Of a DNA stretch of 25,901 nt, positions 14,084 to 19,502 are shown in pieces. The notes under the pieces are model-generated. The model was not told the DNA's origin and made no database searches. It saw nothing but the letters and a program-made list of their open reading frames with translations. The stretch lies in IMG/VR virus record IMGVR_UViG_3300044225_000129, positions 1 to 25,901 of that record; one strand, given 5' to 3'. The position numbers were made by a program, and so were the translations under genes. Numbering within the stretch: position 1 is the stretch's first letter; each line of letters opens with the position of its first letter. This DNA is from a virus.

Positions 14084-14253
14084 GTTTAGATGATTTGAGA
14101 TTGTACACATTTAACATAATTACTTTAGGAGTTAGTTTTACTGCTGTTGAGGATAGTCTAAAGATTGTACTTCTTTTGGCTACTATTGTTTATACGTTTC
14201 AGAAGATATACGCAACCTACAAGAAAAAGAATGAAACTGACAAAGAACTTTAA
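14080..14253 (+). CDS. Small two-TM membrane protein, holin/antiholin candidate
   Basis: A 57-aa protein starting MSLDDLRLYTFNIITLGVSF. Two hydrophobic segments are visible (about 8-25 and 28-46, the second being LKIVLLLATIVYTFQKIY), followed by a charged tail KKKNETDKEL. This is the layout of a small class II-like holin or of a partner modulating the larger holin downstream. I chose ATG 14080 over the in-frame ATG at 14050 because it forms an ATGA overlap with the preceding small ORF. Its 3' end overlaps the endolysin start by 23 bases. Confidence 0.55.
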   Translation: MSLDDLRLYTFNIITLGVSFTAVEDSLKIVLLLATIVYTFQKIYATYKKKNETDKEL

Positions 14254-14608
14254 GCTAAAAGAGTTTGAGTGCAAAGGTGGTGGAAAGATGCCCTTAGAGG
14301 CTTACGAGAACATCATTAAACTTGCAGGACAACTACAATTCCTAAGAGACTATACAGGAAGAGCTATAAGGGTCAATAGTGGCTTCAGGTCAGAAGCTCA
14401 TAATCAAGACATAGGCGGAGTACCAAACTCACGCCACCTGCTAGGCCAAGCAGCAGACATCACAATAGACGGCCTTAATCCAGCACAGGTATTTGCACTT
14501 ATAGAAGACTTAATTGATATGGGTCTCATGCTTCAAGGAGGTTTAGGCAACTACAAGAATTTTACACACTACGATATTAGAAAAACTAAAGCACGTTGGA
14601 ATGGGTGA
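14231..14608 (+). CDS. Endolysin, peptidase M15 family
   Basis: Starting at ATG 14231 the protein has 125 residues and opens with NFKLKEFECKGGGKMP, the usual start of phage M15A zinc peptidases. The zinc site is intact: SRHLLGQAAD (His69, Asp76 in the S-x-H-x-x-G-x-A-x-D motif) and THYD (His113). VNSGFRSEAHNQDIGG is the conserved substrate-side loop. It should cleave peptide stems of peptidoglycan (D-Ala-D-Ala carboxypeptidase or L-Ala-D-Glu endopeptidase type) to release progeny. No signal peptide, so it needs a holin. The in-frame ATG at 14165 would add a hydrophobic stretch read from the upstream gene and is unlikely. The 3' end overlaps the holin ATG at 14601. Confidence 0.88.
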   Translation: MKLTKNFKLKEFECKGGGKMPLEAYENIIKLAGQLQFLRDYTGRAIRVNSGFRSEAHNQDIGGVPNSRHLLGQAADITIDGLNPAQVFALIEDLIDMGLMLQGGLGNYKNFTHYDIRKTKARWNG

Positions 14609-15077
14609 TTATAAGAAAAAGAACGGAACTACAAGAGTCGGAGACGCTTTACGTTGGCTAGTAAAACAAGGCAAGGAAGTAGCACCAGACCTATTATCAA
14701 TAGCTGGTGGTATAACTGGAATAGACCAGCTAAAAGAACTTGCAAATAAGATTGACACAAATAAACAACTCAGCGAAGCTGATAAGGAGTTGCTATTAGA
14801 GGAATTAAGATATGATATGATTGAAATGCAGGAGTCAACTAAGCGTTGGGTTGCTGACATGAACTCTGATAGTTGGTTAAGCAAGAATATAAGGCCTCTA
14901 AGCCTTGCATTTTTGACTTTGAACCTATTTGTGTACATAATACTAGATAGTTCATTAGAAGGCTTTAAAATAGCCTCTAATTGGATTGATTTACTATCTT
15001 CACTACTGCTTCTTGTTTATGGAGGTTATTTTGGGGCAAGAAGTGCCGAGAAAATAACTAAGAACTGGAAGAAGTAA
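14601..15077 (+). CDS. Holin, 3-TM family-like
   Basis: A 158-aa protein with a charged N-terminal half, a helix LLLEELRYDMIEMQESTKRW, then DMNSDSWLSKNIRPLSLAFL leading into a membrane span (about 98-117) and a second span with LLSSLLLLVYGGYFGARSAE (about 130-150). The DSWLSKNIRP junction before the membrane spans is characteristic of the Holin_3TMs family (recalled). It would form the membrane lesion that lets the M15 endolysin reach the cell wall. The order endolysin then holin is reversed relative to many phages. A terminator follows 16 bases after the stop, ending the late operon. Confidence 0.8.
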   Translation: MGDYKKKNGTTRVGDALRWLVKQGKEVAPDLLSIAGGITGIDQLKELANKIDTNKQLSEADKELLLEELRYDMIEMQESTKRWVADMNSDSWLSKNIRPLSLAFLTLNLFVYIILDSSLEGFKIASNWIDLLSSLLLLVYGGYFGARSAEKITKNWKK

Positions 15078-15093
15078 TTTGTTTAATATTCTG

Positions 15094-15122
15094 GGGGCTG
15101 TTTAACATAATGCCCCTTTTTT
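15094..15122 (+). terminator. Intrinsic terminator closing the late region
   Basis: GGGGC / GCCCC stem around a 13-base loop containing TGTTTAACA is followed by six T. It shares loop and leader (TTTAATATT) with the terminator at 8559. Confidence 0.85.
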
Positions 15123-15351: not shown

Positions 15352-15359
15352 TATATTTG
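15352..15359 (+). promoter_or_regulatory. -7 element TATATTTG before the first early gene
   Basis: TATATTTG matches TAnnTTTG exactly and ends seven bases before the ATG at 15367. No TTTG is found 19-21 bases upstream, only a T-run. A start from here would make a leaderless or nearly leaderless mRNA. Confidence 0.5.
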
Positions 15360-15366
15360 TATTGTT

Positions 15367-15792
15367 ATGTCATTATTACATCGCCCACAATATGAAATAG
15401 GTTACAGTGAAGAGGATGATAAAGAGGGATTAAGGAAGCTACTTTGGTCTCAGTTTATGTGTAAGTGTGGGCGTTGTAGTATTAAGACAGGAAAGAACTT
15501 TATGGAAAGGTTGCCTGTTTTTATATTAGATGAGATAGCACAGGAGGAGAGAATGAGATTTGATATTAGATTAGCATACACTTGCAAGCATCACTCTGAC
15601 AAAATAGCACTGACAAGTAAGAATCCACATAGAGTTGGATTGGCAGTAAAGATTAGAATAATTAATAATATGAAAAGATTAAAGTTAGTTCGAGGCTTAA
15701 TAATGCGAGGAGTCACTAGGATTACATTATGTGACGAGTTCGTTTACTTTGATACTGACGACCTCAAACCAATGTCATTGCATATCAAGTAA
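15367..15792 (+). CDS. Early M15-peptidase-like protein with degenerate zinc site
   Basis: The 141-aa protein aligns by eye with the M15 endolysin at 14231. FMCKCGRCSIK (30-40) corresponds to the SEFxCKCG opening. FDIRLAYTCKHHS (65-77) corresponds to the SGFRSEAHN loop. NPHRVGLAVKIRI (86-98) corresponds to NSRHLLGQAADITI, and FVYFDTDD (125-132) to the terminal HxD. His88 and Gly91 remain, but the zinc-binding Asp is Lys95 and the final His is Tyr127, so catalysis is unlikely. It is the first gene after the early control region and ends before its own terminator, so it is expressed apart from lysis genes. No signal peptide. A non-catalytic role (regulator, inhibitor or binder) is inference; a distant lookalike fold is the alternative. 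Confidence 0.6.
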   Translation: MSLLHRPQYEIGYSEEDDKEGLRKLLWSQFMCKCGRCSIKTGKNFMERLPVFILDEIAQEERMRFDIRLAYTCKHHSDKIALTSKNPHRVGLAVKIRIINNMKRLKLVRGLIMRGVTRITLCDEFVYFDTDDLKPMSLHIK

Positions 15793-15794
15793 TG

Positions 15795-15824
15795 TTTTGT
15801 TTTATTTTGTTTTATTTTGTTTTA
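15795..15824 (+). repeat. Three tandem copies of TTTTGTTTTA
   Basis: Three perfect 10-bp units directly follow the stop of the early M15-like gene and precede the terminator at 15831. Each carries TTTG, the -33 element of Bacteroidota promoters. Confidence 0.85.
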
Positions 15825-15830
15825 AGAAGG

Positions 15831-15858
15831 GAGCTGCAGAAATGTGGCTCTTTTTTTT
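15831..15858 (+). terminator. Intrinsic terminator after the first early gene
   Basis: GAGCTGCA / TGTGGCTC (two G-U pairs) closed by a GAAA tetraloop and followed by eight T. Confidence 0.85.
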
Positions 15859-15865
15859 ATTTTTA

Positions 15866-15897
15866 TTTGCATAATTGAAAAATGTTTTTTATGTTTG
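15866..15897 (+). promoter_or_regulatory. Bacteroidota-type promoter (TTTG-N20-TATGTTTG)
   Basis: TTTG at 15866-15869, 20-base spacer, TATGTTTG at 15890-15897; transcription would start near 15903. It overlaps the in-frame ATG at 15882, which therefore cannot be the start of the next gene. Confidence 0.75.
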
Positions 15898-16768: not shown

Positions 16769-17296
16769 ATGAACTTTCATGACAAGGTACTAAAAGTACA
16801 ATCGGAGCTAAAAGCTCCTAAGAACCAAAGAAACAATTTCGGTAAATACAATTACCGTTCTTGTGAGGATATATTAGAGGCTGTAAAGCCACTATTAACT
16901 GCAAATGGACTAACCCTTATGATTACTGACGAGATTAAGGAAGTAGCTGGATTAGTCTATGTAGAAGCAAGAGCAGTATTATTTGATACTGAGGGCAGGA
17001 TTGAGGCCACAGCACAGGCTGGTATTGACCCTAACCGAAAAGGTATGGATATAGCACAGTCTTTTGGCAGTAGCTCTTCATACGCTCGTAAATACGCTCT
17101 AAACGGCTTATTCCTTATTGATGACACTAAGGACGCAGATGCAACGAACGACCATAAGGACGCTCGTAAATGGCTAAATAAGAACACCCCTGAGTTTAAG
17201 AAAGCACAGGAGTTTATGGCATCAGGTGGAACTTTATCCACTATTGAACAGAAGTATAAATTATCAACAGAAGTTAAACAACTATTAAATAAGTAA
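16769..17296 (+). CDS. ERF-family single-strand annealing protein
   Basis: A 175-aa protein with the ERF pattern: NFGKYNYRSCEDILEAVKPL (24-43), GLTLMITDEI, and the hallmark GSSSSYARKYALNGLFLIDD (100-119). ERF proteins anneal complementary single strands in phage recombination and genome circularisation, working with an exonuclease. Here the partners may be the SSB-like protein just downstream and the 5'-exonuclease at 21805. The N-terminal core is complete; the C-terminal tail (about 125-175) is short and charged. It begins the replication block under its own promoter candidate, and the next gene starts four bases after its stop. Confidence 0.85.
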   Translation: MNFHDKVLKVQSELKAPKNQRNNFGKYNYRSCEDILEAVKPLLTANGLTLMITDEIKEVAGLVYVEARAVLFDTEGRIEATAQAGIDPNRKGMDIAQSFGSSSSYARKYALNGLFLIDDTKDADATNDHKDARKWLNKNTPEFKKAQEFMASGGTLSTIEQKYKLSTEVKQLLNK

Positions 17297-18557: not shown

Positions 18558-18943
18558 TTACGCCTATGTACATTGATTTAGAGAGAAAAACTAAAAAGGA
18601 CAGAAGAGTTTATGTGAACATGAACTCTTATGGAAATGTGAATCACTTTATAAACAACCAAGTGAAGAAGAAGTTTAAGGACATAGTATCAAGACAGTTA
18701 GTCGGAGTTAAGATACCGACACCTGTAGATATATTCTATCAGGTATTCAAGCCGAGCAAAAGGAGGCTTGACAAGATGAATGTAATAGCTGTAACGTCTA
18801 AGTATTTGCTTGACGCAATAACAGAGACAGGCTGTTGGGAAGATGACAATGATGATTATGTAAAGACAGAAACAATACTGCCTACAGTTTATGATAAAGG
18901 TAATGGCAGAGTTGAGATTTTAATTAGAACTATAGATGGTTAA
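18530..18943 (+). CDS. rusA: RusA-like Holliday junction resolvase
   Basis: A 137-aa protein with the RusA pattern: PVDIFYQVFKPSKRRLDKMN (65-84, with the Asp and Asn that follow the basic RR), KYLLDAITETGCWEDDNDDY (91-110, with the acidic metal-binding cluster) and a final strand VEILIRTID. RusA-type nucleases cut Holliday junctions and branched DNA, consistent with the neighbouring annealing and nuclease genes. The N-terminal 60 residues, with VNMNSYGNVNHFINNQVKKK, are typical of phage RusA relatives. It overlaps its upstream neighbour by 28 bases and its downstream neighbour by 8. Confidence 0.75.
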   Translation: MSTKNEYRIVTPMYIDLERKTKKDRRVYVNMNSYGNVNHFINNQVKKKFKDIVSRQLVGVKIPTPVDIFYQVFKPSKRRLDKMNVIAVTSKYLLDAITETGCWEDDNDDYVKTETILPTVYDKGNGRVEILIRTIDG

Positions 18944-19502
18944 TAGGCAATTAGAGAAACTCGCATCTAAGCACAAGACTTGGGTTGGGTTGGTTAAGAG
19001 TATGGGTTGCAACCCCTCTTATGTAGAAGATGTTGTTCAGGACGCTTATATCAGGGTTTATGAATACCTAAACAAAGGAGTTGATATATCTTACGGAGAT
19101 GATGATGTAAATGATTTTTATATGTACATGACCTTAAGAAGCATATATCTTAACAAGGCAAAGAAAAAAAGCATAGCCAATGAGACTGTTGATATGCAAC
19201 AAGAGGCTCTGGAGTTTACGCTAAACAACCTAAGAGAAGAGTTTGCAGATGTTGAAGAGGAGCAGGGTTTCAAAAAATTAATGAATAAGATATTCACAGA
19301 AGTAAATAGCTGGGATTTCTATTCTAAAAACATATTCATAGCTTACTTCACTACAGGACTGTCTCTGGATAAGCTATCCAATGAGACAGGCATAGGAAGA
19401 AGCAGTCTTTATAACTCAATAAGGAGATATAGAGAAGTGATAAGAGAAAGTTTCTCAGAGGATGCTGAGGACTATTATAACGGAGATTACGATAAAATTT
19501 AA
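18936..19502 (+). CDS. Sigma-70-like (ECF-type) transcription factor
   Basis: A 188-aa protein with the two-part layout of small sigma factors. CNPSYVEDVVQDAYIRVYEY (25-44) and the aromatic stretch DFYMYMTLRSIYLNKAKKKS (60-79) resemble sigma region 2. After an acidic helical linker (about 85-110), GLSLDKLSNETGIGRSSLYN and SIRRYREVI (141-169) form a region-4-like helix-turn-helix. It could redirect host RNA polymerase to phage promoters or act only as a DNA-binding protein. It overlaps the RusA-like gene by 8 bases and is followed 2 bases later by the Cys-rich gene. The low similarity typical of phage sigma-like proteins makes the functional claim tentative. Confidence 0.6.
   Translation: MVNRQLEKLASKHKTWVGLVKSMGCNPSYVEDVVQDAYIRVYEYLNKGVDISYGDDDVNDFYMYMTLRSIYLNKAKKKSIANETVDMQQEALEFTLNNLREEFADVEEEQGFKKLMNKIFTEVNSWDFYSKNIFIAYFTTGLSLDKLSNETGIGRSSLYNSIRRYREVIRESFSEDAEDYYNGDYDKI

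Follow-up and report, generated by a model that had tools for sequence, protein, structure and literature searches.

The window, the complete stretch of 25,901 nucleotides of viral DNA analyzed here, contains a small gene, termed pseudo-M15 in the following, in a slot flanked by the lysis cassette on one side and recombination genes on the other. Endolysin and holin genes are located directly upstream (Table 1). Downstream, genes for Erf, an SSB-like protein, an AAA-type ATPase, RusA, and a sigma-70-like protein were found. The latter (positions 18936-19502; phrog_1740, E-value of 6.5e-10) could direct late transcription.

Table 1. Genes and transcription signals around pseudo-M15 in the window.
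Feature	Position	Strand	Characteristics	Basis
Intact M15_3 endolysin of the phage	14231..14608	+	M15 branch different from pseudo-M15; H-D-H present	PF08291 E 1.2e-18; phrog_894 1.1e-33; tree
Holin	14601..15077	+		phrog_3427 E 7.6e-25
Probable terminator after holin	15094..15122	+	GGGGC / 13-nt loop / GCCCC / T6	Read from sequence; aligned in relatives
TATATTTG, flavobacterial sigma-A -7 box (TAnnTTTG)	15352..15359	+	7 nt before ATG	Sequence; consensus and position from PMC9723704
Pseudo-M15 protein	15367..15792	+	141 aa; M15 fold; H88 kept; D->K95, H->Y127, S->L69, R->T72	
Intrinsic terminator closing the pseudo-M15 unit	15824..15857	+		Terminator scan
TATGTTTG, promoter-like box of the next, early operon	15890..15897	+		Sequence
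Erf-like ssDNA annealing protein	16769..17296	+	Head of downstream recombination module	PF04404 E 7.1e-38

Scanning viral contigs for pseudo-M15 yielded 15, then 56, and then 79 loci in overlapping sets, which were combined to build an alignment of 62 non-redundant sequences. The family thus comprises about 60 non-redundant relatives, encoded by uncultivated marine phages that probably infect flavobacteria. Annotated M15 peptidases from phage genomes matched the window protein collinearly over residues 29-131 (tblastn, 32% identity, E-value of 6e-10). Comparing the family profile with a profile of 16 M15 lysins, hhalign gave a probability of 98.9 and an E-value of 2.8e-17 over 115 columns. An AlphaFold2 model calculated from a 34-sequence alignment reached a pLDDT of 93.9 and a pTM of 0.87. 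The top PDB match of this model (VIA) was 1lbu, an M15A Zn DD-peptidase (Z of 11.7, rmsd of 2.7, 115 residues, 10% identity), followed by M15 endolysins and Hedgehog domains, and the named top matches in the viral structure library BFVD were M15 peptidases. As the Foldseek E-values against the PDB were weak (best 7e-3), the fold assignment rests on sequence profile and structure jointly; a PDB sequence search with the family profile found no significant match. From profile and model together, we confidently predict an M15 (D-Ala-D-Ala peptidase/Hedgehog) fold for the gene product and its homology to phage M15 endolysins; by both fold and detectable sequence homology it belongs to the Peptidase M15 superfamily. 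A preliminary description of the DNA had taken the gene for a catalytically dead M15 peptidase. Superposition on 1lbu and the profile comparison both agree with the M15 part of this view, and no different fold was predicted.

The second half of that claim was addressed with the family alignment. In all 16 active M15 lysins aligned, S50, R53, H69, D76, H113, and D115 (lysin numbering) were invariant. In pseudo-M15, the first zinc His was found as H88 in 62 of 62 non-redundant relatives. The zinc-Asp position 95 was occupied by Arg in 36, by Lys in 18, and by Gln in 8 of the 62 sequences, never by Asp, and the position of the second zinc His, 127, by Tyr in 60 of 62 (Thr in L083; one sequence truncated). 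The substrate-side Ser was exchanged for Leu (Arg in 4) and the substrate-side Arg for Thr or Val (rarely Leu or Cys), and D129, two residues past the lost second His, was kept in 61 of 62. Since Ser, Arg, Asp, and the second His are invariant in the 16 lysins, the family has lost these residues and has kept H88 and D129. Neither the His-Asp-His zinc ligands nor the S..R substrate motif is present in the 62 sequences, and on sequence grounds this loss of catalytic and substrate residues excludes the zinc peptidase mechanism. The residues named at the outset, Lys95 in place of the zinc Asp, Tyr127 in place of the final His, and His88 as the only one left of three ligands, were thereby confirmed. 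The same degenerate residues recur in the related phages, nearly always in the same slot, and a homologue with an intact H-D-H zinc site in the pseudo-M15 slot was looked for and found at none of 56, later 79, loci. Of the positions that hardly vary or do not vary at all in lysins, eight are altered in pseudo-M15 (R58, P64, S69, R72, N77, S86, D95, and H127). Others became newly fixed or nearly so, namely W27 and R89 (62 of 62 each), R97, K103, and F128 (61 each), and Y127. The median pI of the family is 9.2, with a median net charge of +4 versus +1.5 and +2 in lysins. The N-terminus is a hydrophilic stretch in which sequence inspection found nothing signal-peptide-like, as stated previously.

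A maximum-likelihood tree placed 25 pseudo-M15 representatives in one clade (support 100/100) with a long stem of 1.49 changes per column; the family has a single origin. The clade was nested beside the FDSPD-type M15 lysins (92/82); the Barba and P5 lysins branched outside this grouping, and the CKCG-type endolysin of the window was on a separate branch. The clade hence derives from FDSPD-type M15 endolysins and not from the endolysin of the window phage. As the deep backbone of the tree is weak (72/85), its exact sister group is known with less certainty than its monophyly. FDSPD/Barba-type endolysins (PF08291; phrog_894) share with pseudo-M15 the fold, the overall length, the H..G.A motif, and the final strand with FxD, and their F-D-S-P-D..G-S-G opening is found in most family members as well. 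Unlike these endolysins, pseudo-M15 has lost the active-site Ser, Arg, Asp, and second His, escapes PF08291, and has another position and its own transcription unit. The preliminary description had the protein follow the phage's own endolysin motif by motif. Every motif quoted is indeed present, but BLASTP of window endolysin versus window pseudo-M15 gave no alignment even at E<=100 and the tree groups pseudo-M15 with other M15 lysins, so that this kinship was not upheld; a duplicate of the window's own endolysin was rejected on the same evidence. Pairwise dN/dS values, as simple NG86 estimates with some dS values saturated, fell mostly within 0.04-0.15 for clade A and within 0.11-0.27 for clade B, those of clade A being below the values of neighbouring endolysins (0.13-0.35). 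By these estimates, selection on pseudo-M15 is strongly purifying.

No Pfam match was obtained for the window protein, and the gathering cut-off of PF08291 (Peptidase_M15_3) was reached by no member of an alignment of the family nor by four further relatives tested; PF08291 searches of the contigs matched separate lysins only. Using PHROGs, the window protein matched the endolysin family phrog_894 at an E-value of 0.0054, and 9 of 34 family members showed a weak endolysin-family match (best 0.0016). NCBIfam yielded no credible match, the weak scattered ones being read as chance. Annotation pipelines would consequently miss pseudo-M15 or label it endolysin. Bacterial or prophage homologues were not found in genome contigs at the sensitivity of a pattern scan, and two query sequences detected no isolate phage carrying the gene among phage genomes. 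The nearest isolate by capsid protein is Nonlabens phage P12024S (32.6% identity), in which endolysin, holin, and Erf genes are arranged alike but pseudo-M15 is absent. The promoter type, this capsid relative, and Erf relatives in Riemerella phages indicate that the host is probably flavobacterial. As no integrase was detected in 25 long contigs with pseudo-M15, which may be incomplete, there is no sign of a prophage role, and a temperate moron is disfavoured.

Flavobacterial sigma-A promoters carry TAnnTTTG at -12 to -5 relative to the start site (PMC9723704). Applying this rule to the box in front of the window gene, a leader of about 3 nt is predicted, i.e., a nearly leaderless mRNA; in F. 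psychrophilum only 5.5% of the mRNAs are leaderless (PMC9723704). The strict box was found within <=60 nt upstream of pseudo-M15 in 35 of 68 non-redundant units versus 6% in shuffled sequences. A relaxed box was present in 44 of the 68 units, mostly 3-7 nt from the ATG; the shuffle control covered the strict box only. A terminator 3' of the gene was found in 62 of 67 relatives and 0 times in shuffled sequence. Toward the lysis cassette, the unit is separated by the probable terminator behind the holin gene, a hairpin with a loop exceeding the limit of the terminator scanner. A promoter-like box and a terminator of its own, as had been ascribed to the gene, are hence in place. Host-type promoters so near the pseudo-M15 start suggest early expression, as judged only from promoter type and gene order. 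Between stop codon and terminator (positions 15795-15825), the window contains short near-tandem TTTTGTTTTA-like repeats, and T/G-rich runs are found there in relatives, too.

In nearly all loci, the gene order was endolysin, holin, (small gene), pseudo-M15, short ORFs, and Erf. A separate intact endolysin gene was found upstream where the contig covers that region; pseudo-M15 is not the endolysin of the lysis cassette. The endolysin beside it varies among M15 types, which are the CKCG-type (group of the window), the FDSPD-type (L045 and others), and a 156-residue M15_3 type (L028 and others). In L054 the likely endolysin is an Amidase_2 protein (E-value of 3.4e-18), and in L062/L063, where a PF08291 search of the contigs found no match, a Phage_lysozyme protein (E-value of 2.1e-40). 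Pseudo-M15 is therefore not tied to a particular endolysin type. One exception to the gene order was L064, in which pseudo-M15 is located on the opposite strand, has MCP- and portal-side genes as its neighbours, and is not near any lysis cassette. The gene had also been described as far from a lysis role. By position this is not the case, with endolysin and holin genes adjoining it, but its independence from lysis is supported, since it persists with unrelated endolysins.

A gene for a 75-90-residue helical protein, c13 (example L045:1459-1689), was found just upstream of pseudo-M15 in 26 of 70 non-redundant units, often overlapping its start codon. It is absent from the window phage and its closest relatives. 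The protein has no Pfam match and weak PHROG matches; its structure was modeled confidently as four-helix, with no Foldseek match in the PDB at E <= 0.001. Among 80 loci with c13 homologues examined, NinG was directly next in 40 and pseudo-M15 in 24. In L013/L014, a 98-aa protein (c60) overlaps the pseudo-M15 start where other phages have c13.

Pseudo-M15 very probably serves a new function within the infected cell. Our best explanation, to which we assign a probability just short of even, is a one-time loss of catalysis by an M15 endolysin domain in an ancestor of these phages, after which the domain persisted as a dedicated cytosolic binding pseudoenzyme with a cleft-mediated, host-directed role. 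A promoter of the host sigma type would drive its early synthesis via an mRNA almost without a leader, and the protein would remain in the cytoplasm. The former active-site cleft with the conserved basic residues R89, K/R/Q95, R97, K102, and K103 plus Y127, H88, and D129 would form the putative binding site; we infer the clustering of the basic residues in the old cleft from their alignment with the zinc ligands known in M15 enzymes. The partner bound there might be anionic or acidic, for instance a nucleotide, a nucleic acid, or an acidic protein of the host, and pseudo-M15 would sequester or block it as a host-takeover or counter-defence factor instead of cutting cell wall. This reading is favoured by fold and homology, the altered and newly fixed positions, basic pI and charge, monophyly, low dN/dS, slot, own terminator, promoter box, endolysin exchange, and the hydrophilic N-terminus. 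Counting against it are the strict promoter box in only about half of the loci and the adjoining lysis cassette, which leaves room for a role in lysis timing. We consider it unlikely, yet worth naming, that the protein is more precisely an early cytosolic factor whose basic former active site captures a host molecule such as a nucleotide immune signal or a part of the transcription machinery, making it a counter-defence or takeover protein.

The main rival, possible but on the unlikely side, is an accessory function in the recombination/replication module, in which the basic former cleft binds DNA or RNA and aids functions of the Erf/RusA type. It draws its main support from the translational coupling of pseudo-M15 to c13 in many relatives, as c13 homologues elsewhere precede NinG, and the downstream Erf, SSB-like, ATPase, and RusA genes as well as the basic pI are in line with it. 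However, the pseudo-M15 unit is closed by its own terminator ahead of the Erf operon, the window phage and its closest relatives do without c13, and the protein has no nucleic-acid-binding fold. Degenerate LytM (M23) domains are known to regulate bacterial cell-wall hydrolases (DipM, PMC10336132), and pseudo-M15 lies directly 3' of endolysin and holin genes in most relatives. The dead M15 domain could accordingly bind peptidoglycan precursors, holin, or endolysin and delay lysis. We regard such a timing factor as rather improbable, as the gene stays when the endolysin becomes another M15 type, an amidase, or a lysozyme, is found away from any lysis cassette in L064, is divided from the lysis genes by terminator and own promoter, and encodes no visible export signal. 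An anti-endolysin or endolysin-specific partner role is likewise disfavoured by the endolysin exchange between loci.

Invariant or nearly invariant residues at several former active-site positions might also reflect a new enzymatic activity of the old cleft via H88/Y127/K-R95/D129. This is quite doubtful, as position 95 varies between K, R, and Q, Y127 is T in L083, and the residue combination has no known precedent. M15 domains occur in virions of some phages. A structural or virion-associated pseudo-M15 is nevertheless very unlikely for a small, single-domain protein encoded in its own unit outside the structural gene block, the exception L064 having it on the opposite strand. The lost catalytic residues alone would fit a functionless, decaying duplicate of the phage's own endolysin. 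We rejected this as hardly credible at all because of the low dN/dS and the tree position away from that endolysin; the family-wide conservation of the replaced residues and the conserved transcription signals speak against it as well.

No description of the pseudo-M15 family was found in searches of the open literature. The reuse of an inactive hydrolase fold for binding is known in kind; the family and its setting appear new. In idea, the recruitment is comparable to Hedgehog, EnvC/DipM, and T7 lysozyme. The best solved structural match, the Streptomyces albus G Zn DD-peptidase (1lbu, M15A), is an active zinc enzyme. The Hedgehog N-terminal signalling domain (Hh/DD-peptidase fold; PMC6027127) uses an M15-type fold for binding and matched the pseudo-M15 model with a Z of 6-7. 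Unlike pseudo-M15, it has kept its zinc ligands and is secreted, and it sets a precedent for a non-peptidase function of such a fold but is no sequence relative here. The degenerate LytM/M23 regulators EnvC and DipM (PMC10336132) may be seen as analogues, in which a dead peptidoglycan-peptidase fold was kept as a binding regulator, but they belong to another peptidase family, are located in the envelope, and act on cell-wall hydrolases. T7 lysozyme, which inhibits T7 RNA polymerase by binding to it (PMC5445346), resembles the proposed role as a phage lytic-enzyme fold acting inside the cell on another target; it differs in being a still active amidase with both functions and an unrelated fold. 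Pseudo-M15 is a well-supported single-origin family of dead endolysin domains persisting while the surrounding phages exchange their real endolysins, which makes the family a clear example of how the fold of a lytic enzyme was taken over for a different task. As the protein is small, single-domain, and apparently expressed alone, its partner should be findable by a simple pull-down.

Further observations concern the surrounding genes. Upstream in L028-L066, lysis modules are swapped among otherwise syntenic phages, with three M15 types, Amidase_2 (L054), and Phage_lysozyme plus a lipoprotein-like neighbour (L062/L063). The window endolysin and its near-identical relatives in L001/L002 have lost three of four Cys (ECKGGG...GFRSEAHN) compared to related endolysins (CKCGC...YRC); pseudo-M15 of clade B is also without the corresponding Cys set, which suggests that a structural Cys/zinc cluster was lost as a unit. 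Finally, a ParB-like protein (phrog_12305, E-value of 1.6e-17; L047:5566-6285 and homologues) is encoded directly downstream of pseudo-M15 in some relatives.
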